The notes under the pieces: model-generated
Told to the model about the DNA's origin: nothing
Databases searched by the model: none
The model's input: only the letters and a program-made list of their open reading frames with translations
Program-made: the position numbers and the translations under genes
Origin: Puniceicoccales bacterium Verruco_01
Lineage (GTDB): Bacteria; Verrucomicrobiota; Verrucomicrobiia; Opitutales; Oceanipulchritudinaceae
Assembly: GCA_001604565.1 (NCBI GenBank)
Contig: LVBV01000017.1
Location: forward strand, 1 to 64,000
Length of the DNA stretch: 64,000 nt
Direction of reading: 5' to 3'
Part shown: in pieces, positions 2,694 to 28,330 of the stretch
How the letters are laid out: each line of letters opens with the position of its first letter
Position numbering within the stretch: the first letter of the stretch is position 1

Positions 2694-5639
2694 CTATTTC
2701 CCAGTTGTGGGAAGCGCGTCGCCGAAGTCCAGCCAGTAGGCGGTCATGTCCTTGGTGAAGCACCACCAGCCCGCGCCCGGGATCACGTAGCCCCAGCCGT
2801 AGCTGGAGCAATCGGGCGTGTAATAGGCGATCCAGTAGCCCCGGTTTGTGGTGTCGGCGTTCACACCGGCGTAGAGATAGATCCAGTTCCAGTTGGTGTA
2901 GTTGAAGACCCACGGGAAGTAGGTGTCGTCCACCCATCCCAGATCCGTCCACTTGGCGCCGAGGGTATCCACGGGTGCGTACGCGGACCGCGTCTCGCCT
3001 TCGAGAATCTGGATCTCGTACCACAGGGTGGAAGCCGTCCCGAGGGTCAGGACGCTCGTGGAGGGGGTCACACCGGGGGCCGCGGACAGTTCGTGCAGCA
3101 CATTTCCCTGCGCGTCGAGGGAGCGGAAGCGCACGCGGGCCGGGGGCACCGGCAGGGTGATCGTGGCACCGACGCGCTCGACAAGGCTCGGGGCCGATCC
3201 CCAGTTGGAACCTACCGAGACACGGGCGGGACTCGTCCAGAGCATGTTCGTGTTGGCGGCGTTGCCGGTTGCAACGACAAGGAGCCGCGTGCCGCCGTAG
3301 AGAGCGTCCGCACTGCCGGAGGCGGCGGTCATCGCGATGGTGGACCAGCCCTGTTCCGTGGTGCCGGGCGTGAATTTGATCCCGTTGGAGAAGGTGTGCG
3401 TCTTGCCGTCGGTGAAGCCGATCCACGCCTTCGTGCGAGCCGTGTCAACCGACACGTTTCCGGAAGAGGCGCTCGTGAGGTCCCAGACGAGCTCCCCATT
3501 GTCGGAGGCGAAGGGAACCGACGAGGACGGCGCCTGCGGGGCCTGTGTGAGGCCCGTGGCCGAAGCGCCCACCGAGAGTGACACACGGCTTAATAGGGGC
3601 GTCGCGTTGTCGAGACCGAGTTTCTGTCCGTCGGCGATGCCCCACGCGTAACCCTTCGTGGCGACGATGCCGTGCTCGGTCTCTGGGTCGAACTTCATCG
3701 AATACTCCTGACGGGCCGGAGCCACGTCCTGGCGCAGGAACATGAGGGCGCCGACGAGGGCGTTCGCCATCTTGTTCGGGTGCCGATCCATGTCGAAATG
3801 GGAATTGAAGTAGTCGCGGTCCCAGTTGTGCGCGGCGTCGCCGTACTGGAAGAAGAAGACCCCGTCCCAGTCCTGCAGGCCCGCGTAGGCGCTGAGCAGC
3901 AGCGGCGCCTCGCTGCTGTAGGTGTTGGGCGAGCAATGCATGTATTCGGTGACGAAGAAGGGCTTCCCCTTCACCCTCTGCGCCGCCAGCGAGCCGAGGA
4001 TCCCGCCCCGGTTGTTCACCATGGAGGCGTTCTCCACCGTCCAGTTGGTCGTGCTCCAGTCGTTGTTGGGGAAAACCGGATGCGTCCAGTAGGAGTGGGA
4101 ATCGACCACGTCCATGTGGCTCTGGATGTTGGGCGTGCTCGTGGAAATGATGGTGCCGACGACAAGGCCTGGATAGCCGATGTCGTCGCGGATGTAGTTC
4201 TTCATTCCCACCCAGTAGGACGTTTCCAGTTCCTCAAGGAAGCGGTACCAGTCCGAACGCGCACCACTGGAGATGGTCGAACTGCGCGTGAGGTTCGGAA
4301 TCGCTCCGGAGGAGAGGGCGGTCGCCCCCGGCACTCCGCTGATGCTGCCGCCGGATTGCAGGCTGACCGAACTCAAGTAGATGTTGGAGATCGTGGCGCC
4401 CATTCCGTTCAGCACCACGCGCACGTTGTCGTCCGTCACCCCGGACTGGAACGGGACCTCGAAATACTTCCACGAGGTGTTCAGGCTGCAGGGATTCTCG
4501 AAAAGGGAGGACCACGGGTCGTGGGCGAGGCCCACCTGCATGTTCACCGTGATGGTGCTGTCGGCGCGCGCCCAGAAGGAAAGCGTGTACGTCTGTCCCT
4601 GCGTCACCGCAAGCCCCCCCTGGAGGAACTGGACATGCCAGTCCAGCGTGCCCGGCTTCGTCACACTGACGCGCGCGCTGGTGCGTCCTGAATACGTTCC
4701 GATCGTCACACTGGCTTCCGCGCCGTTGTGCACTTCCAGCGTCCAGGAGGCGGTGCCTTTTGCGAAGTTGCCGTTCGCGAGCATTTCCGTTCCAAGCGGG
4801 ATTTGGTCCACCTTCCACGCATTCAGAAGATCGGTCTGGGTTGCGTACCGCGCCTGAAGCCATGTGTTCCATTTGGCGCGCACCTCCTCGCGAAAAACGA
4901 GCGGCCACGTATCCATGCTGCCGTCCATCCACGTCTGGAGGATGCCGTTCTCGTTGCTGATTTCCACAACGGCCAGCGCCGGGTCCTGCGCCGGAGCAAG
5001 GCCAGTGTAGGGATTCACGGTCAGAAGAAGCTGGCGCGCGTACTCCTTTTGCAACTCGATCATGGCCGGATCGACCAGGGCGATGCCCTTCTGCGTGGTC
5101 CAGTCAACGGAGTCGATCGCCGCGGGAAGTCCGTCGGCGGAATGGAAGAGACGCGCCACGTGCAGGTTCAGGTCCCAGTAGATGCCGCGCTCTTTGAGCG
5201 CGTGCATGAAATACTGCAGGGCGTCGAGGGAAGAAGCCTGCAACGTCCGCGAGCCGCCGGAGGCGTAATCGGGAAGCGTGGGCAGCGACCACGTCTGGTC
5301 CAGATGATGGAAGCGCACGCAATTGAAGCCGAATTTGGCCATGCGCCCCGCGACGGCGTCCGCCTCGGCCTGCGAGGGGAAGTTCGCGGACGCAACGACG
5401 TTCACACCCCAGAAGCGCACGCGGCCATGATCGTTGGCCAGATGCCCGTTGGCGTCGGGAGTAATCCAGCCGTCCTTTCCCGCCGGAGCGCGCAAGAGGA
5501 AGGAGGCGTCCGTCTCGCTTGCCGAGGCGTCGTTCCAGGGCATTGTGAAGGACACCATCGTGGCCGACGCCCCGCAGGCACAGAACAGGGAAGCCAGTGC
5601 AAGAGCACCGCGAACCGAACCAGAGAGGGGTATTCTCAT
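2694..5639 (-). CDS. Exported GH-A clan (GH5-like) glycoside hydrolase with CBM insert and aromatic C-terminal module
   Basis: A 981-aa exported glycosidase. Residues 1-27 (start at 5639) are a signal peptide; the longer in-frame start would bury it. A TIM-barrel N-half (about 50-280) contains ISNENG with the likely acid/base Glu230 after Asn, as in clan GH-A. A jelly-roll carbohydrate-binding insert (about 285-440, CBM4/9/22-like) splits the barrel, which resumes and ends with VTEYMH holding the likely nucleophile Glu565. A beta-sandwich region follows, then a Trp/Tyr-rich module of about 80 residues that resembles the C-termini of the proteins at 11471 and 12633. Neighbouring GH130 and GPH genes suggest a beta-mannoside or related hemicellulose substrate, but the substrate cannot be read from the sequence. 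Confidence 0.8.
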   Translation of the reverse strand: MRIPLSGSVRGALALASLFCACGASATMVSFTMPWNDASASETDASFLLRAPAGKDGWITPDANGHLANDHGRVRFWGVNVVASANFPSQAEADAVAGRMAKFGFNCVRFHHLDQTWSLPTLPDYASGGSRTLQASSLDALQYFMHALKERGIYWDLNLHVARLFHSADGLPAAIDSVDWTTQKGIALVDPAMIELQKEYARQLLLTVNPYTGLAPAQDPALAVVEISNENGILQTWMDGSMDTWPLVFREEVRAKWNTWLQARYATQTDLLNAWKVDQIPLGTEMLANGNFAKGTASWTLEVHNGAEASVTIGTYSGRTSARVSVTKPGTLDWHVQFLQGGLAVTQGQTYTLSFWARADSTITVNMQVGLAHDPWSSLFENPCSLNTSWKYFEVPFQSGVTDDNVRVVLNGMGATISNIYLSSVSLQSGGSISGVPGATALSSGAIPNLTRSSTISSGARSDWYRFLEELETSYWVGMKNYIRDDIGYPGLVVGTIISTSTPNIQSHMDVVDSHSYWTHPVFPNNDWSTTNWTVENASMVNNRGGILGSLAAQRVKGKPFFVTEYMHCSPNTYSSEAPLLLSAYAGLQDWDGVFFFQYGDAAHNWDRDYFNSHFDMDRHPNKMANALVGALMFLRQDVAPARQEYSMKFDPETEHGIVATKGYAWGIADGQKLGLDNATPLLSRVSLSVGASATGLTQAPQAPSSSVPFASDNGELVWDLTSASSGNVSVDTARTKAWIGFTDGKTHTFSNGIKFTPGTTEQGWSTIAMTAASGSADALYGGTRLLVVATGNAANTNMLWTSPARVSVGSNWGSAPSLVERVGATITLPVPPARVRFRSLDAQGNVLHELSAAPGVTPSTSVLTLGTASTLWYEIQILEGETRSAYAPVDTLGAKWTDLGWVDDTYFPWVFNYTNWNWIYLYAGVNADTTNRGYWIAYYTPDCSSYGWGYVIPGAGWWCFTKDMTAYWLDFGDALPTTGK

Positions 5640-5772
5640 ACACTTAAGATAGAGGACTCTCCCGTGTCTCCACAAACCCTCAATTCACGGTCCGGCAATC
5701 GAGGAGACACTTTTTTTTGCTTTGCCCACACATCCCGCGATTCCCGCGCCTCATACGCGGCCTTGCGCGAAT

Positions 5773-5804
5773 GAAAAGGCGCGGCCCATGCAGGGGCCGC
5801 GCCT
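5773..5804 (-). terminator. Terminator of the GPH symporter gene
   Basis: An 11-bp perfect stem (5794-5804 with 5777-5787) with a six-base loop, followed on the minus strand by four T residues. It lies just past the symporter stop. Confidence 0.65.
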
Positions 5805-5831
5805 ATAGAAAACACAAGCCAACAGGAAAAA

Positions 5832-7334
5832 TCAGACCGTGCCGCGGCGCGCCTCCAGCTCGCGGCGGATCTCGTACACCCGCTGCTTGGTGAGCGGGAA
5901 GGTCAGGGCGAAACCGATGGCCAGCAAAAGTCCCGCCACCGGGATGAAGGCCAGGCACGAGCGGATCCAGAAGATCGTGTCCGCATCCTGCACCGCCTTG
6001 TTCGCGTCGAAGCCCGACCACGAGAGGATCGCCCCGCCGAGGAACATGCCAAAGGAATTGCCGAATTTGAGGATCCACGACATGAACGAGGCAAAGCCGC
6101 CCTCGCGCCGCGTGCCGGTGGAAAGTTCGTCGTAGTCCACGATGTCGGCGCCGATGGCGCTGTGGAGCATCCAGATGGACGCGCAGGAAAAGGCGATCAT
6201 GCCGGAGGCCAGAATCTGCAAATACGGGGCGGAGGGGCTGTACAGGAACCACGTTCCCGCAAAGGAAAGGATGCCGACGACGCTCGCCGTGATGATGGCA
6301 TTCACCTTGCCGAATTTCTGCGCCACAAGGTTGAAGACCGGCGGGCCGGAAAAGCCGAGGATCATGTAGCCAAAGCTCATGTAGAAGTTCCAGCTGTCGC
6401 CCGAGACGGTGTCGCCCGCGCAGACGTAATACACGGTGCAGTAGTAGCCGAGGGCTCCCACCATGCTGTTGGCCACCGAGAAGGAGATGCCGAACCAGAG
6501 CATCACCCGGTACGGCTTGCAGCCGAGCGTCTGCTTCATCGAAGTCCAGATGGAGAACTTCTTCTGCTTCGCCGCCACATTCTCGTAGTAGCGCTCCTTG
6601 AGGTTGAAGAACATGTACACCGCCGCGCAGATCATGATGAAGCCCAGGATGCACGTGTAGTAGCGGACGCCCAGAAGCGTGTTCTTCTGCGCGTTGGCTG
6701 TCGTGCCGTCCGCAAGGATCATCGGGGCGGAGATCACAAAGAGATTGGTGAACTTGAGGGCGTAGAAGTTGCCGACCTCGAAGATCTTCTGCATCGCGCT
6801 GCGGTAGGTCATGATCGAGGTGCGCTCGTTGTAGTCGGGCGTCATCTCGTTACTCAGGCTGTTGAAGGGCATGCTGAAGAGGCTCACGATCGGCAGGTAG
6901 ATCATGTTGGTGCCCATCATCCAGAGGAAGATGTAGTCCAGCCGCACGCTCCAGAAGCCGAGGTCCAGATCGAAGCCCTTGCCCGCCCAGCTTTCCGGGC
7001 ACATGAAAATGAGCGGCAGGCACACGCCCGCCAGAATGCCGGACAGCAGAATATAGGGGCGGCGCCTTCCCCATCGGCTGCGCGTATTGTCGGAAATCCA
7101 GCCACAGACCGGGTCCGCGAAGGCGTCGTAGATGCGCATGAACATCAGCGCGAAGCCGATGAGCATGGGATCCACCTTGAGGTAGATGTTGAACACCGCG
7201 AAGGCCACGCCCGGATAGAGCCAGAAGCCCCACATCTCGATCGCGGTGCCCAGCCCGTAGGCGGATTTCTCGCGGAAGGGCAGGCGGTCGCGATTCGTTT
7301 GCGTGACTGAGGGAGAGCCGGGATCCTGAGACAT
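5832..7334 (-). CDS. GPH-family sugar:cation symporter (MFS_2)
   Basis: A 500-aa inner-membrane carrier with about 12 hydrophobic helices. The signature DAFADPVCGWISDNTRSRWG, followed by RRRPYI (residues about 70-95), is the D-DP-G-D-R-GR-RP motif of the glycoside-pentoside-hexuronide:cation symporters, which move oligosaccharides or glycosides with H+ or Na+. The length matches the family. It lies downstream of the GH130 gene and upstream of the large exported glycosidase, all on the minus strand, but a hairpin sits in each gap, so the three may be partly independent transcripts. The likely role is inner-membrane uptake of the oligosaccharide that GH130 phosphorolyses. Substrate is inferred from context only. 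Confidence 0.88.
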   Translation of the reverse strand: MSQDPGSPSVTQTNRDRLPFREKSAYGLGTAIEMWGFWLYPGVAFAVFNIYLKVDPMLIGFALMFMRIYDAFADPVCGWISDNTRSRWGRRRPYILLSGILAGVCLPLIFMCPESWAGKGFDLDLGFWSVRLDYIFLWMMGTNMIYLPIVSLFSMPFNSLSNEMTPDYNERTSIMTYRSAMQKIFEVGNFYALKFTNLFVISAPMILADGTTANAQKNTLLGVRYYTCILGFIMICAAVYMFFNLKERYYENVAAKQKKFSIWTSMKQTLGCKPYRVMLWFGISFSVANSMVGALGYYCTVYYVCAGDTVSGDSWNFYMSFGYMILGFSGPPVFNLVAQKFGKVNAIITASVVGILSFAGTWFLYSPSAPYLQILASGMIAFSCASIWMLHSAIGADIVDYDELSTGTRREGGFASFMSWILKFGNSFGMFLGGAILSWSGFDANKAVQDADTIFWIRSCLAFIPVAGLLLAIGFALTFPLTKQRVYEIRRELEARRGTV

Positions 7335-7403
7335 GGGGTGTTTTTCCAGGGGTGGCAGTGGACACGCGGCGGGAAACCGCGCCAGAAAAGAGAAAACGAG
7401 AAG

Positions 7404-7432
7404 GCCGCGCGGGAGTCAACGTCCCGCGCGGC
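7404..7432 (-). terminator. Probable terminator of the GH130 gene
   Basis: An 11-bp perfect stem (7422-7432 with 7404-7414) followed on the minus strand by a broken T-rich run (CTTCTCGTTTTCTC). Partial read-through into the symporter gene is possible. Confidence 0.55.
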
Positions 7433-7444
7433 TAGGGAGGGGTG

Positions 7445-8428
7445 TCAGCGAAGTTCGTTTGTTTTCTTCACCCACTCGACGATCTCGTCGGCCTTGCAGA
7501 AGGCCATGGCGGTGTAGGTGTCCGCCGCGCCGTAATAGATCGCGATGCGGCCTGAGGGCGCGTCGCAGAGTGTGGCGCAGGGGAAGCACACGTTGGGAAC
7601 GAATCCCGTCGTCTCGTAGGACTTTTCCGGGGTGATGAGGTAATCCTCCGCGCGGGCGATCACCTTCCAAGGCTGCTCCAAGTCCAGCAGCGCGGCGCCG
7701 AAGCTATAGACGAAGCCGTTGCAGGTGCCCGACACGCCGTGGTAGAAGAGGAGCCAGCCCTCGGTCGTTTCGAGCGGAATCGGGCCCGCGCCGATCTTGA
7801 CGCCCTGCCACCAGCCCCTGCCGCCGGCGCGCATCACCATGCGGTGCTTGCCCCAGTAGGTGAGGTCGGGCGACTGCGAGAGCACGATGTCGCCAAAGGG
7901 CGTGTGCGCGCTGTCGGAAGGACGGGAGAAAAGGAAGTAATTGCCGTTGATCTTGCGGGGGAAGAGCACGCCGTTGCGGTTGAAGGGCATGCAGGGGTTT
8001 TCCATCGAATGGAAGGTCTTGAAGTCCTTCGTCCAGCCCATGCCGATTGAGGCGCCCGGAAAATCGTCGCACCAGGTGACGAGGTAGCGGTCCTCGATCT
8101 TCACGACGCGCGGATCGTAGGCGTAGCTGCGGGGCTTGGCCTTGCCGTCCTCGCCGATCCATTCGATGATCTTGTCTTCCACCTCGATGTGGATGCCGTC
8201 CTTGCTTTTACCCGCATGCAGGTTCGCGCGTCCATTCTTGCCGTCGGCGCGGAAGACGCCCGCGAAGGCGCCCTCGAAAGGCACCACGGCGCTATTGTAG
8301 ATGCGCGAGGTGGATGGCGTCGGGTTCCAGTCGATGAGCGGGTTCCCGCTGTAGCGCCACATGAGGGCGTCGCTGCCGGCGGGACGGTTTTCCCAGGGAA
8401 TGTTGGGGAGTGCTTGTCCGATGATCAT
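7445..8428 (-). CDS. GH130 family beta-mannoside phosphorylase/hydrolase
   Basis: A 327-aa soluble five-blade beta-propeller protein. Family features are NSAVVP (45-50), YDPRV with the likely proton donor Asp105, RPSDSAHTPFGD (169-180), KIGAGP (211-216) and FYHGV with His230, a position used for phosphate binding in phosphorylases. GH130 enzymes phosphorolyse or hydrolyse beta-1,4- or beta-1,2-mannosides; the absence of a signal peptide and the adjacent sugar symporter fit an intracellular phosphorylase giving mannose 1-phosphate. The subfamily, and so the exact acceptor (glucose, GlcNAc or mannose), cannot be decided by eye. Confidence 0.87.
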   Translation of the reverse strand: MIIGQALPNIPWENRPAGSDALMWRYSGNPLIDWNPTPSTSRIYNSAVVPFEGAFAGVFRADGKNGRANLHAGKSKDGIHIEVEDKIIEWIGEDGKAKPRSYAYDPRVVKIEDRYLVTWCDDFPGASIGMGWTKDFKTFHSMENPCMPFNRNGVLFPRKINGNYFLFSRPSDSAHTPFGDIVLSQSPDLTYWGKHRMVMRAGGRGWWQGVKIGAGPIPLETTEGWLLFYHGVSGTCNGFVYSFGAALLDLEQPWKVIARAEDYLITPEKSYETTGFVPNVCFPCATLCDAPSGRIAIYYGAADTYTAMAFCKADEIVEWVKKTNELR

Positions 8429-11470: not shown

Positions 11471-12577
11471 ATGAACAAATGGATACTTGATACGTGTCTG
11501 TTTGCCGTCGGCATCTCCGTGTCGTCCGCCGCAACGGTGAACATCGAACCCGTATTCACGGCTTCCGGAGCCTCCTTCTCCGCGATGCCGGCCAACCGCT
11601 TCGGCATGATCGCCTCTCCCGGCGATAAAAGCGCCGTGACCGACCTGATCACGGGCCCGCTCCAAACCGTGGGCCCCGCCGAACGCTCCTGGATCGGCGC
11701 CCGTTATGTGGGCATCCATTCGTCCGACACGACCTTTACCGTGCTGGAGGAGGGCGTCGCTGCCTTTCAGCTTGCCGCTCCGTACAACCGCATTCTTGCG
11801 GGAGGCGCCCTCGCCACCGACATGGCCGCCGTGATTCCCCGCTCCGGTTCGTGGAGCACGGTTTCCACAGTCCCGGCAGGTTCACCTCTTGCCGGTGCCT
11901 CCGGAACGGCGACCGCCACCGACCTTTCGATCAACATCGCCCTCGGGGGCCTGTCCCTCTCCGGCAGCATCGGTTACTCCGTGGAGGACGACACCCACAT
12001 CCGGCTCGCCCCCTTCGTCCTTGCGGGCGGCGCGGCGAGCCACTCCTTCAGCGAGGGCTGGCTGGATCCCGACGACAGCGGAGGGTACTCGGGGCTGATC
12101 GTGAGCGCCAATCCCGCCAGCTTCGACTCCATCGCCTACGTGATTCACCTCACGGGCATGCCCGATGCCGATAGCGACGGAAACCCGGACCTGACCGACC
12201 GCGCCAGCCCCGTCTGGTACGCCCCCTACTCCATCGTGGACGACGGCGTGGTGGAAAGCCGGTGGTTCGGCTCCTTCCGTTTGTACGGCAGTGACGTGAT
12301 CTTCCACGACGCCCTGCACTGGCTCTACTGCACCTCGCAGGGAAGCTGGCTCATCGCCTACGACTTTAACGGCATCGGCTGGCTGGCGACATGCTCCGCG
12401 GCCTACCCCTACGTCTATCTCTACGACGTTCCTTCCACTGACGGACGGATCACGGAATCGGGCTGGGCCTACGTCTCTGAAGGTAACGGCGACGGCCACA
12501 CCTGGCTCTTCTTCTTCGGCGGCTCCCGCGCCCAGTCCGGCACCTATCCCGAATACCGGGGCTGGTGGCGGTTCTAA
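11471..12577 (+). CDS. Exported protein with aromatic-rich C-terminal module, unknown function (368 aa)
   Basis: Residues 1-21 are a signal peptide (MNKWILDTCLFAVGISVSSA). The middle, about 22-235, is Ala/Gly/Ser/Thr-rich beta-type sequence without a recognised fold. DADSDGNPDLTD near 237-248 looks like a single calcium-binding DxDxDG repeat. The last 120 residues form a Trp/Tyr/Phe-rich module (SRWFGSFRLYG, WLIAYDF, YPYVYLYDVPS, TWLFFFGG, GWWRF) shared almost entirely with the next gene and more loosely with the glycosidase at 2694. The three + strand genes 11471, 12633 and 13605 are 55 and 45 bases apart and likely one operon. The module might hold the protein at the surface or bind glycan; this is a guess. 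Confidence 0.75.
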   Translation: MNKWILDTCLFAVGISVSSAATVNIEPVFTASGASFSAMPANRFGMIASPGDKSAVTDLITGPLQTVGPAERSWIGARYVGIHSSDTTFTVLEEGVAAFQLAAPYNRILAGGALATDMAAVIPRSGSWSTVSTVPAGSPLAGASGTATATDLSINIALGGLSLSGSIGYSVEDDTHIRLAPFVLAGGAASHSFSEGWLDPDDSGGYSGLIVSANPASFDSIAYVIHLTGMPDADSDGNPDLTDRASPVWYAPYSIVDDGVVESRWFGSFRLYGSDVIFHDALHWLYCTSQGSWLIAYDFNGIGWLATCSAAYPYVYLYDVPSTDGRITESGWAYVSEGNGDGHTWLFFFGGSRAQSGTYPEYRGWWRF

Positions 12578-12632
12578 ACTTTTCTGTAAGCACCACAAAA
12601 AACACAAACAAAAAACCATCCCCAAACCACCC

Positions 12633-13559
12633 ATGAAATACGCACTCTCGGCACTCATTCTCGCGACGCTTGTCCCCGCCACCGCAAAGGCGGACTACGT
12701 TCTCAACGACTTCGAAACGGACAAGGCGCCCTGGAGCACAGGAACCATCAGCACCTCTTTCGCGACGAGCGGCACGCACTCCCTGCGGCTGGCCCTGCCC
12801 GCCTCGGACATGTGGTACTGCAGCAGCACAATTATCGACGTGACCCAGTACACGACCGAACAGCGGCAGGCCGCCTTCACCAACGCGACCAAGCTCATGC
12901 TCGACTTCACCGTCGGCAACTACACGGCCGACTGGATGAGCGACGCCCACGTGGGCTTCATCCTGCAGGGGACCGGCGCGGGGAACGACTGGGTACCACT
13001 CGGCACCCAGAAATGGAACGGCCTTGCCGTGACCACAACGGCGGAAATCCCAATCACGCCCGCCCAGGCCGCCATCCTCGCCAGCGACCCCGCGGCCAAG
13101 CTGTTCCTCTACGCGGACTACGGCAACGGTAGCAGCAAGGGCATCAATCTCTTCGTGGACACCTTCCGCACTGACGCCAGCAGCTCTACAACCCCCTGGT
13201 ATGCCCCGTATTCCACTCTGGAAAACGGCATGATCCGGAGCGAATGGTTCGGCTCCTTCCGCCTGTATGAGGGTGATTTCGCCTTCCACAACGACCTGAA
13301 GTGGCTCTACTGCGCTCCGCAGGAGGGTTGGCTCATCGCCTACGACTTTAGCGACATCGGATGGCTGGCGACCAGTTCCACCACCTATCCGTACATCTAT
13401 CTCTACGAAGTGCCCTCCGCGGACGGCCAGAGCACGGAATCGGGCTGGGCCTGCGTCTGCGAAAGCAACGGCGACGGCTACACTTGGCTCTTCTTCTTCG
13501 GCGGTTCCCGCGCACTGTCCGGCACCTATCCCGAATACCCGGGCTGGTGGCGGTTCTAA
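12633..13559 (+). CDS. Exported two-module protein: CBM-like N-module joined to aromatic C-module (308 aa)
   Basis: After a 20-residue signal peptide, residues 21-185 form a jelly-roll-like module (VLNDFETDKAPWSTG, ending NLFVDTFRTDAS) nearly identical to residues 21-185 of the GH44 enzyme that follows. The last 120 residues are the Trp/Tyr-rich module of the preceding gene, ending GWWRF. The protein is therefore a mosaic of its two neighbours with no catalytic domain. An attractive but unproven idea is a glycan-binding surface protein working with GH44. No Shine-Dalgarno is visible before the ATG. A 75-bp stretch at 13094-13168 is identical to one in GH44. Confidence 0.8.
   Translation: MKYALSALILATLVPATAKADYVLNDFETDKAPWSTGTISTSFATSGTHSLRLALPASDMWYCSSTIIDVTQYTTEQRQAAFTNATKLMLDFTVGNYTADWMSDAHVGFILQGTGAGNDWVPLGTQKWNGLAVTTTAEIPITPAQAAILASDPAAKLFLYADYGNGSSKGINLFVDTFRTDASSSTTPWYAPYSTLENGMIRSEWFGSFRLYEGDFAFHNDLKWLYCAPQEGWLIAYDFSDIGWLATSSTTYPYIYLYEVPSADGQSTESGWACVCESNGDGYTWLFFFGGSRALSGTYPEYPGWWRF
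13094..13168 (+). repeat. Exact 75-bp direct repeat, copy 1
   Basis: Identical at every base to 14066-14140. It encodes AKLFLYADYGNGSSKGINLF and the following residues of the shared N-module. The surrounding module is less similar at DNA level, so this block points to recent duplication or gene conversion. Confidence 0.9.
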
Positions 13560-13604
13560 AACCCGTCGCGACAGCGAAAGGAAGACAACACCCATTCATT
13601 TCAT

Positions 13605-16397
13605 ATGAAATACACTCTTTCACCCCTGCTCCTGCTGGCGCTGGCGCCGGCAGCGGCAAGGGCGGACTATGTCCTCAACGACTTCGAAACGGACAAGGCG
13701 CCTTGGAGCACCGGAAGCCTCAGCACTTCCAACGCGACGAGCGGCACGCATTCCCTGAGGCTGGCACTGCCCGCCTCGGACATGTGGTACTGCAGCAGTA
13801 CGATCATCGACGTAACCCAGTACACCGCCGAGCAAAGGCAGGCCGCCTTCGCCACCGCGACCAAGCTCATCATCGACTTCACAGTGGGCACCTATACCGC
13901 CAGCTGGATGAACGATCATCACGTGGGCTTCATCCTGCAGGGGACCGGTGCGGAAAACGACTGGGTTTCGCTCGGCAGCCAGAAATGGAACGGTCTTGGC
14001 GTGCTGACGACTGCGGAAATCCCTCTCACGCCCGCCCAGGCCGCCATTCTCGCCAGCGACCCCAAGGCCAAGCTGTTCCTCTACGCGGACTACGGCAACG
14101 GTAGCAGCAAGGGCATCAATCTCTTCGTGGACACCTTCCGTACCGACGCCAGCGGTTCGTTCAGCCTGCCGCTCGCCCTCAAGGGGGCGCACATCGAGTC
14201 CGCCACGACAATCGCGCTGCTTTGCGACGACGACGTGGATGTGGACGCCTCCGCCGGTGCAACGATCACCCTTCAACCGACCTCCGGCGGCACCGCACAG
14301 CCGCTGACCCTCGTCGGCAACGGCGACAAACCGGAGATCGTGCTCCTTGGGACGACCTCCGCCCTGTCCGCCGGAACGAGTTACACCCTGACTGTGTCCG
14401 GCCTCAAGGGGAAGGGCAATGTCAGTCAGAAGGAGCAAGTGCAGTTCACCGTCACCATGGGCGCGGACGTGAACCTCTCGGTTGACTCGCTCGCCTCCGA
14501 CCACCGCATCTCGCCCTACATCTACGGGCTCTCCTTCGCCCCCTCGCCGGAATACATGCGGCGCGCGGGCTTCACGGTGAACCGCTGGGGTGGCAACGCC
14601 GTCTCCGCCTTCAACTGGAAACTGAACGCCACCAACCGGGCCGCCGATTGGTACTTCCTGAACTCCGGTATGACCGCGCCGGAGACGTATATCTCCGACA
14701 ACGCCGCAGGCGGCGCCCTCACGCAGTGGACGCTTCCCTGCCTGCCCTGGGTGGCCAAGGACACGACCTCCTACTGCTTCTCCGTAGCCAAGTACGGTGC
14801 CCAACAGGCAGTGAATCCTTACAACAGCGACGCAGGCAATGGAAAGACAACCAGTGGTGCAAGAATCCTGAATGACTTCACCGACGCACTGGTGCCCAAC
14901 AAGCCCTCCCCCGCCGCCGGTGACAACGCCACCACCATCTATCAGGACGAGTTCCTGCGTTCCATGGATGAAAAGCTCGGCGGGTTCACGCGAAAAGTTC
15001 CCTTCATCGCGATGGACAACGAGGTGGACATCTGGGACGGCACCCATGCCGAGGCGATGCACGACAAGATGTCCTACGACTCGATCGTAAGCAACTTCAC
15101 GTCCTTCGCCTCCATGACGCGGCAGGAGATCCCGGACGCGCAGATCTTCGGCCCCGTCAGCACCGGCTGGTATTACTACTGGAATTCCGCCAAGGGCGGA
15201 GAGCGCGCAAGTCACGACGGCCTCGGCTTTCTGCCGTGGTTCCTCAAGCAGGTGAAGGCGTTTGACGATTCCTTCGGCAAGCGGACCCTGGACGTTCTGG
15301 ACCTGCACTTCTATCCGGAAGCCTGCACCACGAGCAACGGGGACGCCACCATCGACGCCTGGCGCATGAGGGCCACCCGCGAGCTCTGGGATCCCTCCTA
15401 CACGGCGGAAGGCAGCATCGGCAAGGATAGCTTCTGGGCCGCCGGAGAACCCGACCAGTACAAGCCCAAGCTGATTCCCCGCATGAAGGGACTCATCAGC
15501 ACCTATTACCCGGGCACGAAGCTCGCCTTCACGGAATGGACCTACGGCGACGGCCTGTCGGGGGCTCTCGCCGACGCCGACGCGCTGGGAATCTTCGGCA
15601 AGTACGGAGTGTATTACAGCACGATCTGGTCCACTCCCGCGACGAACGAACCGGGTTACCAGACCTACTGTCTCTACCGCAATCCCGACGACAGCGGACG
15701 CGCCTTCGGCTCGCTCTATCTGCCCGCCTCCTCGCCCAATCTCGATTCGGTCAGCATCTTCGCCAGTCTCGACAGCAAGGGCGATTGCCTCAATGTCATC
15801 CTGATCAACAAGAACAAGGGCAACAGCCGCCGCTGCACCGTGCAACTGCCGTCGGTGACACTGGCCGGAACCCCCGAGGCCTTCCGCTTCGACGAGTTCT
15901 ACACCGACCGCGTTGTCACCCTGCCCTCGGACGCCGTGAGTGTTTCGAGCGGAAGCATGACCGTGGTTCTGCCGCCGTTTGCGGCCATCCGCGTGATCAT
16001 TCCGATCGTGCCTACGGATTCCGACAACGACGGCATGGCCGACGTGTGGGAAAACCTCTATTCCACGGCTTCGGGAAGCTCCGCCGCCCTCAATCCGGCG
16101 AAGAACGACGCCGACGCGGACAACGACAACGACGGTTACACCAACAAGGAGGAATTCCTCGCTGGCACCAATCCGCAGGACGCGGGCAGCCATCCGCAGT
16201 TCTTCATCACCACCAAGTCCGACGGGCGTCTGCTCCTCTGCGCCTTCGCCCCGTACGACCGCACGGTGGAGATTCAGAAGTCCCCCGACGCACAGACCTG
16301 GGAGACGATCAAAACGTTCGCGGGATCGGACGGCTGGATCGAAATGCCCTACGACTACCCGACCGCCGGCGAATTCTACCGGGCGGTGATCCGGTAA
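13605..16397 (+). CDS. Exported GH44 endoglucanase/xyloglucanase, multidomain (930 aa)
   Basis: Signal peptide 1-20; CBM-like jelly roll 21-185 shared with the gene at 12633; an Ig-like domain about 186-287; GH44 TIM barrel about 290-690; a beta domain to about 800; a DxDxDG calcium-binding region (DSDNDGMADVWE, DADADNDNDGYTNKEEF) about 806-860; and a C-terminal beta domain ending FYRAVIR. GH44 is shown by RWGGNAVSAFNW, DNEVDIWDGTH with the likely acid/base Glu473, and FTEWTYGDG with the likely nucleophile Glu644. GH44 enzymes cut beta-1,4-glucan chains and several prefer xyloglucan. The enzyme is probably extracellular. It is the last gene of a three-gene set and ends at a strong terminator. 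Confidence 0.9.
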   Translation: MKYTLSPLLLLALAPAAARADYVLNDFETDKAPWSTGSLSTSNATSGTHSLRLALPASDMWYCSSTIIDVTQYTAEQRQAAFATATKLIIDFTVGTYTASWMNDHHVGFILQGTGAENDWVSLGSQKWNGLGVLTTAEIPLTPAQAAILASDPKAKLFLYADYGNGSSKGINLFVDTFRTDASGSFSLPLALKGAHIESATTIALLCDDDVDVDASAGATITLQPTSGGTAQPLTLVGNGDKPEIVLLGTTSALSAGTSYTLTVSGLKGKGNVSQKEQVQFTVTMGADVNLSVDSLASDHRISPYIYGLSFAPSPEYMRRAGFTVNRWGGNAVSAFNWKLNATNRAADWYFLNSGMTAPETYISDNAAGGALTQWTLPCLPWVAKDTTSYCFSVAKYGAQQAVNPYNSDAGNGKTTSGARILNDFTDALVPNKPSPAAGDNATTIYQDEFLRSMDEKLGGFTRKVPFIAMDNEVDIWDGTHAEAMHDKMSYDSIVSNFTSFASMTRQEIPDAQIFGPVSTGWYYYWNSAKGGERASHDGLGFLPWFLKQVKAFDDSFGKRTLDVLDLHFYPEACTTSNGDATIDAWRMRATRELWDPSYTAEGSIGKDSFWAAGEPDQYKPKLIPRMKGLISTYYPGTKLAFTEWTYGDGLSGALADADALGIFGKYGVYYSTIWSTPATNEPGYQTYCLYRNPDDSGRAFGSLYLPASSPNLDSVSIFASLDSKGDCLNVILINKNKGNSRRCTVQLPSVTLAGTPEAFRFDEFYTDRVVTLPSDAVSVSSGSMTVVLPPFAAIRVIIPIVPTDSDNDGMADVWENLYSTASGSSAALNPAKNDADADNDNDGYTNKEEFLAGTNPQDAGSHPQFFITTKSDGRLLLCAFAPYDRTVEIQKSPDAQTWETIKTFAGSDGWIEMPYDYPTAGEFYRAVIR
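14066..14140 (+). repeat. Exact 75-bp direct repeat, copy 2
   Basis: This is the second copy of the block at 13094-13168, within the N-module of the GH44 gene. The 972-bp spacing equals the distance between corresponding positions of the two genes. Confidence 0.9.
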
Positions 16398-16584: not shown

Positions 16585-19176
16585 TCACCGGGTCACGGTG
16601 ACGGTCTGACGGATGTCGGCGGAGGAGGCACCGGCGCGGAGGGTCCACTCCCCTTCGGGAATGAAATACGTCTTTTGCGCGTCGCTCCAGCGGCGCAAGG
16701 CCGACGCGGGAACGGCGATCTCCACGTTCTTCGACTCCCCGACGGCCAGATGAACACGGGCGAAGCCGCACAGCGCCTCCTTCTCGCGCGGGTGGGAAGC
16801 CTGCGGCGGGACGGCATAGATCTGGACGACCTCGTCGCCGTCGCGAGTGCCGACGTTCGCCACATTGACGCGGACGGTAAAGCCGCCCTTTGCCGACTTT
16901 TCCGCCGCCAGCTTCAAGTAGCGGAACTGCGTGTAGGAAAGTCCGTGACCGAAGGGATAGAGCGCCTTGCCGTCAAAATAGCGGTACGTGCGGCCCGCCA
17001 TGTTGTAGTTGAGGAAGTCCGGTAGGTCCTCCGTCGCGCGGTAAAAGGTGACGGGGAGGCGGCCCGAGGGGTTGTAACGGCCAAGGAGCACGTCCGCCAC
17101 GGCTGTGCCGCCCTCCTGCCCCGGATACCACGCCTGCAGGACGGCCTTCGCGCGAGCGTCCGCCGTCGCAAGACCCACGGCGCTGCCGGAAAGGTTCACC
17201 ATCACGACCGGTTTGCCCGTGTCGCAAAGCTCGTTCAGCAGCTTTTCCTGAAGCGCGGGCAGTTCGATCCGCGTGCGATCGCCGCCGGAAAAGCCGACGT
17301 AGTCCACGGCCATTTCCTCGCCCTCCAGCTGGGCCGTGAGGCCGCCGACAAACACGATCGCGTCCGCCTGCTTTGCAAGGTCGAGCGCTTCGCCAAGCAT
17401 CGAGTCGGGCTCCGGCGTCCGCCATTCCAGGGCCAGGGTCACCGCGCCGTCGCCCTGCGTGTATTCAAGGCGGATCGGGACCGAGGCGTTTTCCGGCAGG
17501 GAGCAGGAACCCTCCAACTCGCGAATCCCGGCACTTTCCGCCGCGGAGGGCGCCCATGCGTCGATGACGGTCTTTCCGTCGAGCGACAGGCGGAAGCCGC
17601 CGCGCGCGCGGACGCGGAAGCGGTAGGTCCCAGCGGCGGTCGTCGTCAGCTCGCCGTTCCAGCGCACGGAGACGCCGCGCTCCGGCAGACCGGCGGGCAT
17701 GCCTCCGGAAGTGGAGAAACCTAGGCCGCATTCAAAGCAGATGGGCCTTTCCGTGCGCTTTTCAAAAGGTTCGCCCGCAAGGTCGGGATTGGCGAAGTAC
17801 TCGCCGCGGAACCACGGCTGGGGGATCGACCTCCAGGCGTCGGGCCGCCACGCGTAGTCGCAGCCGTAGGCGTAATCCACGCTCACGCCCTTCGCCTCCA
17901 GCGCCGCCTTCAGGCCCGCCAGAACCGTCACGGGATGGGAGGGTTCGCCGCAGTAATTGCCGGTGAGGGCGGGAACGGAGTTCGCGTTCGGCCCCACGAT
18001 GAGAACGCGGCGGAGCGCCTTGGTATCGAGGGGCAGGATGCCGTCGTTCTTGAGCAGGACGAGGCTCTCCCGAGCGGCGACAAGCGACAGGGCGCCGTGC
18101 TCCGCGGTGTCGTTTTCGGACGGGGCGATGGCGTTGAAGGGAACGGACTCCTTCGGATCGAAGAAGCCGAGCCGGAACATCGTGCGCAAAAGCGGCGCGA
18201 GCCGGGCGTTTACCGTGTCTTCGGTCAGCAGACCGGCATGCACGGCGCGGACGATCTCGGAAGTCTCCGTCCCGCAGCAGACGTTCATCCCGGCGTTCAG
18301 GACCAGCGCGCTGGCCTCCGCTGCGTCCGCCGCCTTCTTGTAGGAATGGATGAGGTCGCCCACCGAACCGCAGTCGCTCGTCACGTGGCCGTCGAACTTC
18401 CAGTCCTTCAAAAGCCCGTAAAGGAGCGGGTCGATCGAGCAGGGCGTGCCGTCGATGGCGTTGTAGGCGGTCATGACCACCTCCACGTGCGCGTCCTTCA
18501 CAAGGGCCTCGAAGGCGGGCAGGTAGGTCTCGTGCAGGTCCGCGTCGGAGATCACCGCGTCGAACCCGTGGCGGAGGCTTTCGGGGCCGCTGTGCACGGC
18601 AAAGTGCTTCGCGCAGGCGGCGGCCTTGAGATAATCGGGGTTATTGCCCTGAAGGCCCTTCACGAAAGCCGTGCCGAGGGTTGCCGTCAAAAAGGGATCT
18701 TCACCATAGGTTTCCTGCCCCCGGCCCCAGCGGGGATCGCGAAAGATGTTCACGTTGGGCGACCAGAAGGTCAGGCCGCGGAAAATCTCGCCTTCCTCGG
18801 GCGTTCCCTTGTAGCCGTTGAACTTGGCGCGGCCCTCGATTCCGACGACCCCAGCGATCTCCTCTTGGAGCGGCGCGTCCCACATCGCCGCAAGGCCGAT
18901 CGCCTGCGGGAAGACCGTGGCATGACCCGCGTTCGCAACGCCGTGAAGCGCCTCGCTCCACCAGTTGTATTTCGGGATGCCAAGGCGCGGCACTCCGGGG
19001 GTGGAATTCTGCATCAGGGAGGCCTTTTCCTCCAGCGTCATGCGGGAGACGAGGTCCTCGATGCGGACCTCACGGGAAAGCGACGGATCCTGATACGGGA
19101 GCGGCTCCCCTGACAACGAAGCCGAAGACAGGGCGGTCACGGCGGCCAGACAAGGCAGGAGTGAGTACAGTTTCAT
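16585..19176 (-). CDS. Exported GH3 beta-glucosidase/xylosidase with PA14 insert (863 aa)
   Basis: Signal peptide 1-23. The GH3 N-terminal barrel contains WWSEALHGVAN, DPRWGRGQETYGEDP, AKHFAVHSGPE and the nucleophile motif VTSDCGSV with Asp268. The GH3 C-domain starts near ESLVLLKNDGILPL and is interrupted by a PA14 domain (about 450-580, RGEYFANPDLAGEPFEK to the Gly/Val beta core), then continues with LEGEEM, where the acid/base Glu is expected, and VDYVGFSGGDRT. A fibronectin-III-like end finishes the protein. This layout is typical of periplasmic beta-glucosidases and beta-xylosidases; specificity cannot be read by eye. It has its own upstream region behind the receptor's terminator and probably trims oligosaccharides from GH44. 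Confidence 0.92.
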   Translation of the reverse strand: MKLYSLLPCLAAVTALSSASLSGEPLPYQDPSLSREVRIEDLVSRMTLEEKASLMQNSTPGVPRLGIPKYNWWSEALHGVANAGHATVFPQAIGLAAMWDAPLQEEIAGVVGIEGRAKFNGYKGTPEEGEIFRGLTFWSPNVNIFRDPRWGRGQETYGEDPFLTATLGTAFVKGLQGNNPDYLKAAACAKHFAVHSGPESLRHGFDAVISDADLHETYLPAFEALVKDAHVEVVMTAYNAIDGTPCSIDPLLYGLLKDWKFDGHVTSDCGSVGDLIHSYKKAADAAEASALVLNAGMNVCCGTETSEIVRAVHAGLLTEDTVNARLAPLLRTMFRLGFFDPKESVPFNAIAPSENDTAEHGALSLVAARESLVLLKNDGILPLDTKALRRVLIVGPNANSVPALTGNYCGEPSHPVTVLAGLKAALEAKGVSVDYAYGCDYAWRPDAWRSIPQPWFRGEYFANPDLAGEPFEKRTERPICFECGLGFSTSGGMPAGLPERGVSVRWNGELTTTAAGTYRFRVRARGGFRLSLDGKTVIDAWAPSAAESAGIRELEGSCSLPENASVPIRLEYTQGDGAVTLALEWRTPEPDSMLGEALDLAKQADAIVFVGGLTAQLEGEEMAVDYVGFSGGDRTRIELPALQEKLLNELCDTGKPVVMVNLSGSAVGLATADARAKAVLQAWYPGQEGGTAVADVLLGRYNPSGRLPVTFYRATEDLPDFLNYNMAGRTYRYFDGKALYPFGHGLSYTQFRYLKLAAEKSAKGGFTVRVNVANVGTRDGDEVVQIYAVPPQASHPREKEALCGFARVHLAVGESKNVEIAVPASALRRWSDAQKTYFIPEGEWTLRAGASSADIRQTVTVTR

Positions 19177-19627
19177 GGTAGATCAGATGTTGGTTGGTTT
19201 GAAAGGGGTAAGGAGCTCACCGGAGAGCTCGCCAACTCGCACAAGGCCGCCTCGAACAACTGATTTCATCGCGAGAACGAGGATTTGCGGAGGGTTGCAA
19301 GGCTTTGGAAGTGAGCCGTATTGAAGAAAACCCAGCGAACTTCCCAAACGCTGCCAGCCGCCGCAAAGACCGTTCGTAGAAGATATCAAAGTGATTCGAG
19401 ATGGCCACTATTACCCCGATTGGTAAAAGGGAAGCTGTCAAGCGAACTTGGCACAAAATTAAACAATTCAGTGGGCGGGACAAAAAACAAGGGGGCCCGG
19501 ACCATCAGGTCCGGGCCCCGACACTTCTCCGCACCGTTCAAGGGCCCACTCCACAGGAACGGTTAAGCGGACCAAACTCGATCCTCAAAGGGGAAAATCC
19601 CCCGGGGATCCTCATTAATCCTCAGAA
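19177..19627. other. Intergenic region between receptor and GH3 genes
   Basis: No gene is visible in these 451 bases. The left part is the presumed GH3 promoter region and the right part holds the receptor terminator (19482-19519). A minus-strand TTGACA occurs at 19436-19441 but no -10 element lies at the proper spacing. Confidence 0.5.
19482..19519 (-). terminator. Terminator of the TonB-dependent receptor gene
   Basis: A perfect 12-bp GC stem (19508-19519 with 19492-19503) and ATCA loop, followed on the minus strand by TTGTTTTTT. It is among the strongest hairpins in the window. Confidence 0.88.
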
Positions 19628-22600
19628 CTAGAACATGAACTTCATGCTCAGATCCCAACTCATACCACTAACAATTCTCTGCTGGGCAACCGTGCCGTCG
19701 GGCTCAACGGCGACCGTGACCAGATGGGTGCTCTCACCAACGTTGCGGAGATTGAGCTGGACACGCCAGTCAATCTTGTCCGTAAGCTTGTGCTGGTAAC
19801 CGACCCACAGGTCGAAGTGAGAATCGGACGAACCGTAGATCGGCTGGTCGACGTCATACACCCACGCCTTGTTGCCGTACACCTCGCCCTCTTTGATGCC
19901 GTAGCCTACAATCTGTTTCGAAGCCCAGCGGAAGGCACCGCCGAAGTTCAGGCCCTTCACGATACCATCGTCGAAGGTGTAGTTGGAGATGAGCTTGAAG
20001 TTCCACTTACGAACCTCGGGCTGATCTGAGCCAGACAGCGAGATCTGGGTGAGATACGGAGCCCAGAGACCGCTCATGAACTCGTTCTTCACAGGTCCGT
20101 TATAGTTTCCCCATTCCGGCGTCAGTCCGATGTCGGTGCCAAGATACAGATCCGCCATGCCGTTCAGGAAGTCGGCGGCGCTCTGCCCGAGCGAGGTCTG
20201 CTTGGCCTCCACCTTGGAAGCGTTGAAGGTGACGTCCCAGTTCTTGACGGGACGCACCGTGGCTTCGAGTTCGAAGCCCTTAGACTCCAGATTCTGGTCG
20301 ATGATCGGGGAGGTGCCGTGAATCAAGTGGGTGTTGGCGATGTTCCACGGAATGGGCGAGGCGCCCGTGGTGAGAACATGGAGCCAGTCTCCCTTCTTGA
20401 TCGCGTCCACGCTGACCGGAATGCCGTACTGATCCCAGTAGGTCTGGGGATACATCTTGATGAAGTCGCTCTGGAGGGAGGCCTTGAGCTTGCTGACAAG
20501 CTCTGGGTGATCGTTGATCCAGCCCCAAAGCCAGCTGTTGTTCTTTAGGTCGTCCGGGAGTGCACTGGGTGTTTCATAGGCCGCGATGGCAGACGCAGCG
20601 AAACCGAGCGTCCAGCAGGGCAGCGAGTCGATCAACCAGCTCTTGCCGCCGAGCGGATTGCTGTAGCCGAGTTGCGCGTGCTTGTCTTCGGTCTTGAAGT
20701 AACCCAGACGCATGGTGACCATACCGTCGAAACCGTCGTACTGGATGCTGAAGTCGTCCGTCTGGCCTTCCTCGTTGGGAATTTCGTTGCCGTCGAGTCC
20801 ATAGCGAACCCTCGGGGTCTGATTGCTACCATGGAAGTAGTAGAGGCTGACATCGTGCCCCTTGGGAAGGATGCCCTTGAACATCTTCGCCATGTGCGCC
20901 GCCACGCCGTAGCTGATGGACGTGGTGTACATCACCACGCCGGGATCATCCATCGTGTAGTTCATGGAAGCGACATTTGTGTCGCTGTTCTTGGGGGCAA
21001 CAGTGCCCTGCTGGCGGACCTTGTCGCGACGAATGCCAACCGAGGGAACGATCGCATCATCCCAGAAATAACCCTGGTAGAGGAAGGCAGCCGAAGTCAG
21101 AGTCTGGCGCTTCTTGTCACCCGAGGTGTAAAGCTGGTCGCTGTCGCGCCAGTTGATGACCGACGCCGCATAGTTGCGGTAGCCCTTGTAATTGGCCGGG
21201 TTGTCGAGCTCGGTCAGATACAGGTCGCCGTTCGGAACGGGATCGATCCATTCCGCAGCCGGATCGACATCGCTGGCCGCGGTCCAAGTGCCGTCCCACA
21301 TTCTGACGGGCCCGGAAGTCGGGGTGATGGTGTTACCGATGTTGCTCAAGTTGGCGCCTGCGAGCGAGGTCCTGCTGGCAAGCGAACCGCCGAGGTAGGC
21401 AACCCAATTGATGGCGCTGTTGCCGACCTGATTGCCGAGGTTTGTCTCTTGGGCAAAGGCGAGATCAGTGCGATACTGCTGGAAGCTGCGGTCTTCCTGA
21501 TTGGTGATGTACTGGCCGAGCAGTCCCGTGAAATCCTGATGTCCCAGAATGCGGGTCAGCAGGCTTTCCTCCATGATGTCGCTGAAACGGAGCGAATACG
21601 CGGCGGTGAACTGGAAGTTGTCGTGCTTGTAGAAGGTTTCGCTACCATTGTTATAGGTGCCCGCGATGAACGGACGGCCCACGTTCGGATTGGCCTCGTA
21701 ACCACTCTGCCAAGTCGGATAAGCCGCCGTGTTGTAGGCGTTCATGTCCACCGAGATGTACGGCGTGCCGACCGCGCCTTCCTGCCCGTTGCTGTACTCT
21801 TCGTGCGTTGCGACGAACTGGAGGTTCAGCGCGTAGTTGAACAGGCTCTGGACCACGCTCAGATTGTAGGCGTTCCAGTTCTGCCACTCGTGCTTGTTGT
21901 TACCGTCGATGAGCTTGTTGTAGAAGTCGAAGACCGATGTGTCGCTCAGCGTCTTGTCGAGGTAGGTGACCGTCCTGTCGTACGCGCCCGGATACTTGCT
22001 GGAGTCGGCGTAATTCGTGGCGATAGCGTAGTGCTGGAATCCGGTCGTGTACAGGTTGTAGGCGTTTTCGACCACGTTGAAACCGGGGAGATACTTTCCG
22101 TCCGACTTCCTCGTGCCGCCAAGTCCCGCCTGGCCCGCCTTCATGAGCTGGCCGGTCGTGCCGTCAAACCAGTAGGTGGCGTTGCTGCCCCATGCGTAGA
22201 GGATGTCCTCATTGGTCACCCACGGCGAACCGGTGGGATCCACATTGGCCGAGTTGGCATCGTACGTGTAGGGGTTGTAACCGCCCTTGTTCGTCTTTGC
22301 GTCGAAGTAGCCGGAGATGTAGTCCATCGGCGGCAGCGTGCGCGGATTGTTGGAATCCACCTCGCCGTTCTCGAAGTTGAACTCGATCTTCAGGTGGCTC
22401 GAGGGCGTGTTGAAGAACTCCGGATCGTAACGAAGCGCCGAGTAAATGCGCTTGGAGTTATTGTACGCAGGCTTCTGCTGGTAGAGTTCGCGGTTGTCCA
22501 CGAGGTCCACTCTCACGGCCAACTCGTTGTCAATCAGCATCCGGTTGTAGTCGAGGGTGCCTCGGGTGGTTCCGTAACTGCCGTAGTGTGCCTCGACCGA

Positions 22601-23203: not shown

Positions 23204-23550
23204 TTTGGTTCGTGTAGCTTGTGTGTGGGATTGATCCGCCCCCACTGCCTGTGAAAGGCCGTGAAAACGAATCAGGAGAGTGCCTGGGATAAAAACGCCT
23301 CTAACGGCCTAGGATGAGGCCGGCGGGGGAATCGAAAATGGGGAAAGGGGTATGGAAGAAACTACGGGGTGCCCAGTAGGCGGATCGCCCCACAATTCGA
23401 ATCAACGTATTCCCCCCGGAAAACCCGCCACAAAAATGCAGGCCCCGCCATCCGCACGGGGGAGCGACCATGCAACTGGCCACAACGCCCCCTCGGCAGG
23501 AGGGCGCTGCGATCGTCCACACATTTCCCGTCCCGGCGGAACGCCGGGCG
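23204..23550. other. Intergenic region upstream of the receptor gene
   Basis: These 347 bases separate the GH29 stop from the receptor start. A 7-bp hairpin (23532-23538 with 23542-23548) lies three bases past the GH29 stop on the minus strand but lacks a T-run, so it is only a possible terminator. No gene or confident promoter was seen. Confidence 0.4.
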
Positions 23551-25806: not shown

Positions 25807-25841
25807 GGGAAAAAGTGGGGAAAGAAGGGTTCGCGCGGGGT

Positions 25842-28286: not shown

Positions 28287-28330
28287 GGATGCAAGCGTGC
28301 CGGCATTGGTTGAAAGAAGAAGTGCCGCCC

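Follow-up and report, generated by a model that had tools for sequence, protein, structure and literature searches.

How does a bacterial gene come to carry the front of one neighbour and the back of the other, and what would the resulting protein do? This question is raised by three adjacent genes, P0001, P0002 and P0003, in a stretch of 64,000 nucleotides from Puniceicoccales bacterium Verruco_01 (contig LVBV01000017.1, assembly GCA_001604565.1, positions 1-64,000 of the forward strand), referred to here as the window. P0003 encodes a glycoside hydrolase of family 44 (GH44), and P0002 unites an N-module of the GH44 type with a C-module of the P0001 type (Table 1). The explanation we favour, with a probability of about 0.68, has two parts: P0002 would have arisen by one tandem duplication across the boundary between P0001 and the GH44 gene, and the C-module would act as a tail that retains exported proteins at the cell surface independently of an exosortase. 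The more interesting result is this uncatalogued tail and its exchange with PEP-CTERM tails.

P0002 is a mosaic of its two neighbours

The three genes lie on the same strand with spacers of 55 and 45 bp. Residues 1-185 of P0002, which comprise the signal peptide and the N-module, share 85% identity with residues 1-185 of P0003 (E 3e-100), and residues 189-308 share 71% identity with residues 249-368 of P0001 (E 5e-63). Similarity of this degree is far beyond chance and bears out the mosaic composition described by an earlier inspection of the letters (the sequence-only reading). P0003 is assigned to GH44 by its match to PF12891 (E 1.7e-52) and by the presence of both Glu motifs; the whole catalytic domain aligns with solved GH44 structures (3ii1, 2yih), and the Glu residues of DNEV and TEW are what we take to be the GH44 catalytic pair. 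Known enzymes of this family are xyloglucanases and endoglucanases; P0003 is set apart from them by its unclassified N-module and its TSP3 repeats. Neither P0001 nor P0002 has any match in the domain libraries Pfam (E values up to 10) and NCBIfam. No catalytic domain was detected in either protein and the swapped parts belong to no Pfam or NCBIfam family, in agreement with the same reading, so both proteins are apparently non-catalytic. Export of the proteins would proceed via their signal peptides.

Origin of P0002 by a junction-spanning tandem duplication

A self-comparison of the locus revealed one contiguous direct repeat with 81% nucleotide identity over 968 aligned columns. Each unit runs through a C-module, a stop codon, an intergenic spacer, a signal peptide and an N-module. 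The left edge of the repeat is the start of the C-module and the right edge is the end of the N-module, and the unit spans the boundary between P0001 and the GH44 gene. The chimera is thus flanked by two direct copies of the 3' part of one gene, the spacer and the 5' part of the next, the arrangement by which a chimera formed by junction-spanning tandem duplication is recognized.

In the proposed scheme, the ancestral locus would have been a gene pair, in which a P0001 N-domain with a C-module was followed, after a spacer, by an N-module with a GH44 domain. Tandem duplication of the C-module-spacer-N-module segment (~0.97 kb) would produce the present gene order, and the extra copy would at once give rise to an in-frame middle gene with the signal peptide and N-module of the GH44 enzyme and the C-module of P0001. 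Since a single duplication yields this gene in frame, no separate swap is needed. The mosaic seen by the sequence-only reading stands, and the exchange of modules between neighbours by which it was explained gives way to one junction-spanning duplication, which explains it better. The sequence itself shows the duplication, and the origin that it gives to P0002 is simple and well supported. The pair of P0001 and GH44 genes occurs only in the window's own genome (G000) and in one congener (G001), and no genome was found to carry it without the middle gene.

As in known births of chimeric genes by tandem duplication, one duplication would join the 5' end of one gene to the 3' end of its neighbour. 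The present case differs in that the genes are a bacterial pair without introns, the chimera is kept in two species and the N-module copies evolve in concert.

Age of the duplication and concerted evolution of its copies

G001 carries the same three genes in the same order; its P0002 also has 308 residues, and the junction likewise lies between residues 185 and 189. The pairing next to GH44, which the sequence-only reading had proposed to look for in related genomes, thus recurs in a congener and is not confined to one strain or assembly. Because the junction is identical in both species, the duplication is placed before the G000/G001 split, which is the most likely date. The third congener (G002, of the same genus) has neither a GH44 gene nor an N-module.

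The copies within one genome are nevertheless closer to each other than to their orthologues. In the N-module, identity at fourfold degenerate sites is 72% within G000 but 35-43% when the two species are compared, the site patterns are concerted at 40 positions and orthologous at 3, and the tree that groups orthologues is rejected (approximately unbiased (AU) test, p = 1.6e-5), the within-genome tree being strongly preferred. The C-module leans in the concerted direction too, not significantly (AU p = 0.09; 22 concerted, 9 orthologous and 10 cross patterns). The signal peptides lie outside the shared similarity (2 of 9 against 53 of 74 fourfold degenerate sites, Fisher p = 0.006). This within-genome similarity, clear for the N-module and weaker for the C-module, is most naturally read as the outcome of gene conversion or of unequal crossing over among the repeat units. 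Concerted evolution is documented in prokaryotes, in which paralogues within a genome are likewise closer than orthologues (PMC6053082); in contrast to those cases, modules of two different genes and not whole genes are affected here.

Within-genome similarity would also be expected if the chimera had come from recombination or gene conversion involving separate genes, or had arisen twice, once in either species. We consider this very unlikely, as the single 968-bp repeat includes the non-coding spacer, and both the gene order and the junction residue are identical in the two species.

Between G000 and G001, P0002 has a ratio of nonsynonymous to synonymous substitution rates (dN/dS) of 0.17 over the full 308 codons, at a synonymous divergence near saturation, and shows no frameshift or stop. 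The ratio over the full length indicates that P0002 is kept as a protein by purifying selection. A duplication by itself gives an intact reading frame, which would suit a P0002 that is a functionless by-product; with constraint of this strength, and no frameshift or stop near synonymous saturation, that alternative is highly improbable.

The C-module is an uncatalogued tail

A profile of 24 sequences (A1) has the consensus WFGxF...YH..GWLY...YD..LGWLxT...YPYxY...W...RxF, and in the AlphaFold model of P0002 the C-module is all-beta with a predicted local distance difference test score (pLDDT) of ~90. The 24 module sequences match nothing above chance in Pfam, NCBIfam or the sequences of the PDB. 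Profile searches of the PDB with alignments of the C-module, the N-module and P0001 gave chance matches only, and Foldseek searches of the PDB with the whole AlphaFold models of P0002 and P0001 gave no match at E < 0.001, the top rows being mostly jelly-roll proteins. The family and structure searches envisaged by the sequence-only reading thus place neither module in a known family and yield only weak jelly-roll folds for the N-module. We found no description of the C-module in the literature.

The module is common. Counts from profile searches of genomes are lower bounds: at least 22 intact C-modules are present in G000, of which 20 end within 25 residues of the stop codon. Among all distinct loci collected, 65 of 75 C-modules are C-terminal, with exactly one per protein. 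The carriers include GH26 enzymes, VWA proteins with Ig-like domains, a reprolysin-like metalloprotease, DUF4465 and FG-GAP proteins, InlB-type proteins and proteins with T5SS/PEP-CTERM-associated repeats. In the taxonomic family, compared across 17 genomes of 9 genera that include G000, G001 and G002, the module occurs in 16 genomes at 5 to 54 or more copies per genome; elsewhere in the phylum it occurs in few genomes. A scan of named genome contigs with P0002 as query gave no match, and the consensus as query detected two Opitutales/Opitutia genomes and one Candidatus Eremiobacterota genome. In the latter, a metagenome-assembled genome outside Verrucomicrobiota, the C-module is internal to the protein (L165:3533-4942).

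The C-module is presumably comparable to the choline-binding and GW-type aromatic modules of cell walls, as a small aromatic beta-hairpin present in one terminal copy on many exported proteins, a likeness that no search returned. The C-module differs from such cell-wall binding repeats in that none of its 24 members matches a family of this kind in Pfam and in that its hosts are Gram-negative.

Exchange of the C-module with PEP-CTERM tails

PEP-CTERM tails are distinguished by a Pro-Glu-Pro motif, a membrane helix and a basic end (PMC1569441). The C-module resembles this exosortase-dependent system in occurring in many copies per genome, at the C-terminus of diverse signal-peptide proteins and on the same types of passenger, and one orthologous protein can bear either tail. 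However, the C-module is a folded aromatic domain of ~90 residues, is found in a genome with no detectable exosortase and is sometimes N-terminal or internal. It contains no Pro-Glu-Pro motif, membrane helix or basic end and does not match TIGR02595. It is not a PEP-CTERM tail, because these hallmarks are absent and because it is present where no exosortase was found.

The exosortase (PF09721) was detected in 15 of the 17 family genomes, both congeners included, and was not found in G000. PEP-CTERM proteins number more than 20 in G001 and about 20 in G002, and none scores above the cut-off in G000. The loss of the exosortase and of PEP-CTERM proteins from G000 is probably real, since it is implausible that some 20 dispersed genes all lie within the 5% of the genome that is missing.

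The clearest exchange of tails is seen at a syntenic pair that consists of a DUF4465 gene and, after it, a TonB-receptor gene: the C-terminus of the DUF4465 protein is a C-module in G000 and a PEP-CTERM tail in G001, and the DUF4465 protein of G002 has a PEP-CTERM tail too. In six C-module proteins of G000, TIGR04393 scores above the cut-off; this repeat owes its name to its co-occurrence with tails of the PEP-CTERM or autotransporter type. The related proteins of the congeners have PEP-CTERM ends, with a similarity of 24-37% that is repeat-based and does not by itself prove orthology. The N-module shows the same behaviour in other genomes: one relative ends in PEP-CTERM (G219; TIGR02595, 19.1 bits, cut-off 16) and another carries autotransporter repeats (G586). 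From lineage to lineage, N-modules and other passengers are thus combined with surface-type tails of different kinds, and it is chiefly on this ground that we interpret the C-module as a tail for surface retention.

Proposed function of the C-module and of P0002

We propose that the C-module may be a widespread, aromatic-rich beta module, mostly C-terminal, that holds exported proteins at the surface without an exosortase, and that in the G000 species it would take the place of the PEP-CTERM tails of the congeners. The proteins that bear it, P0002 included, would then be located at the surface. P0002 would thereby keep at the surface a copy of the N-module found in the secreted GH44 enzyme. 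With a glycan-binding N-module, P0002 could retain the enzyme's substrate close to the cell; with a self-associating one, it could dock the enzyme. Any binding by the N-module or the C-module is putative.

The C-module could instead be an ordinary module for binding carbohydrate, cell wall or exopolysaccharide, which acts on external glycan and has no special role in surface retention. Its very aromatic, hairpin-rich sequence, its position, which is not strictly C-terminal, and its presence on GH26 would fit such a function, whereas the majority of carriers (repeat proteins, proteases, VWA and DUF4465 proteins) are not glycan-degrading enzymes and the exchange with a PEP-CTERM tail at an orthologous locus points to a role in placement. 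We regard this alternative as possible, if doubtful.

Several observations weigh against surface retention by the C-module or against the duplication history. Ten of the 75 modules (13%) are N-terminal or internal, which fits a processed C-terminal signal poorly and a binding domain better; this suggests non-covalent binding and not a cleaved signal. A general role of the C-module as exosortase substitute was rejected, as most family genomes carry both systems, and the 23 C-module matches in G000, against 10 and 13 in the congeners, are only a modest excess. The structure matches offer no clue to a ligand, the AlphaFold model of P0001 is mediocre and that of the P0002 N-module is poor, with low confidence. 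The G000 assembly is a draft with a completeness of 94.7%, and signal peptides were called by eye and with a crude script only. Parallel duplications at the same junction could also give the concerted similarity of the repeat units.

More broadly, the exosortase-independent tail may mark a surface-display system that has gone unrecognised in Opitutales and their relatives within Verrucomicrobiota. Such a system would serve as many as ~50 clients per genome, would have replaced the lost PEP-CTERM/exosortase system in this species and would recruit new clients through the transfer of tails, P0002 being an example; we advance this extension tentatively. The locus itself offers a new exported bacterial protein born by one duplication across a gene boundary, with both source genes still adjacent, a common tail without any curated protein family, and a natural example of a species that lacks the PEP-CTERM system and bears a different tail on an orthologous protein. 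Should the tail indeed hold proteins at the surface, a location could be predicted for dozens of Verrucomicrobiota proteins that are now unannotated, and a short surface-display tag would become testable.

Relation of the trio to GH44

The sequence-only reading took P0001 and P0002 for dedicated non-catalytic glycan-binding or surface-docking partners of the GH44 enzyme, possibly a SusD/SusE-like solution. The common strand and short spacers, the N-module shared with the enzyme, the retention of the arrangement in a second species and the GH31 gene that adjoins the trio in G001 are consistent with such partners. The N-module, which has no sequence match to a carbohydrate-binding module (CBM) or any other family, also shows a weak jelly-roll resemblance to CBM28 and CBM6 (Foldseek E ~0.03-0.05, low template modelling (TM) score, low-confidence model).

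The distribution of the parts argues otherwise. The N-domain family of P0001 is found in 12 of the 17 family genomes and 7 of the 9 genera, as reading frames of 330-430 residues, most of which contain a DxDxDG linker together with a C-module in its usual or a divergent form, and GH44 exceeds the cut-off in only 2 of these 12 genomes. P0001 thus existed independently and came to adjoin GH44 in this genus. In five loci of other genera (L173, L175, L178, L180, L182), a P0001-family gene stands just before or close to a cluster of MoxR ATPase, DUF58 and TgpA/transglutaminase genes. The C-module is likewise general, and a C-module neighbour is absent from all eight further GH44 loci found among 373 genomes of the order, as it is from the second GH44 locus of G000 and of G001. 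A SusD/SusE-like role finds no footing: no SusD or SusE Pfam match was obtained, the signal peptides, which end in SSA, AKA and ARA, are ordinary ones that lack a lipobox with its Cys behind the cleavage site, and no co-directional SusC-type receptor is adjacent, the nearest Plug-domain receptor (19628-23245) lying on the opposite strand beyond a GH3 gene. What stands is a pair of exported, apparently non-catalytic proteins beside GH44 for which a surface role is plausible; a partnership dedicated to GH44 is unlikely.

The possible functional link of the P0001 family to the MoxR-DUF58-TgpA/transglutaminase cluster is a separate observation. The second GH44 gene, which has no N-module or C-module neighbours, is present in both species (L073, G000:C46:79955-80638; L074:7810-9702, G001:C32).

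Genomic context

Coordinates are given in Table 1. A consensus scan found no promoter for the trio.

Table 1. Features of the three-gene locus, in window positions, and of the DUF4465 loci compared.
Feature	Location	Strand	Basis or remarks
P0001, 368 aa	11471..12577	+	signal peptide, family-specific N-domain (aa 20-240), Asp-rich TSP3-like linker DADSDGNPDLTD, C-module
C-module of P0001 (WYAPYS...GWWRF)	12215..12574	+	alignment to P0002, profile A1
Tandem repeat unit 1 (P0001 C-module, spacer, P0002 signal peptide and N-module)	12214..13181	+	blastn self-match, 968 columns, 81.4% identity to unit 2
P0002, 308 aa (GH44-type N-module, aa 1-185; P0001-type C-module, aa 189-308)	12633..13559	+	protein alignments
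N-module of P0002, predicted beta-sandwich	12693..13187	+	weak jelly-roll fold matches only
C-module of P0002	13197..13556	+	alignment, profile A1, AlphaFold
Tandem repeat unit 2 (P0002 C-module, spacer, P0003 signal peptide and N-module)	13196..14153	+	blastn self-match
P0003, 930 aa, GH44 (signal peptide, N-module, weak Big_5 Ig-like domain, GH44 catalytic domain, TSP3 repeats, C-terminal beta domain)	13605..16397	+	
N-module of P0003	13665..14159	+	alignment to P0002
GH44 catalytic region of P0003	14457..16004	+	DNEV and TEW align with DNEP and TEY of the solved GH44 enzyme 3ii1
Terminator-like hairpin and T run downstream of P0003	16462..16483	+	consensus match only
DUF4465 locus of G000	L135:4442-7536 (G000:C14)		TonB-receptor gene next
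DUF4465 locus of G001	L050:2214-5109 (G001:C29)		TonB-receptor gene next
DUF4465 locus of G002	L242:355-1164 (G002)		

Upstream of the trio (window 2694-8428) lie genes for a CBM_4_9 protein, an MFS_2 sugar transporter and a GH130 enzyme; downstream (window 16585-30121) lie genes for a GH3 enzyme with PA14, a receptor with a TonB plug, an alpha-L-fucosidase, GH2 and GH43. A role of the GH44 enzyme on plant glycan is plausible, because these flanks are rich in glycoside hydrolases and a GH31 gene stands next to the trio of G001.

Elsewhere in G000, an additional C-module of the P0001/P0002 type has decayed and contains a TAG stop (L048:1715-2113, G000:C61:62475-62684), and three C-module genes are clustered within ~6-10 kb at L135 (G000:C14) and at L136/L144 (G000:C56).

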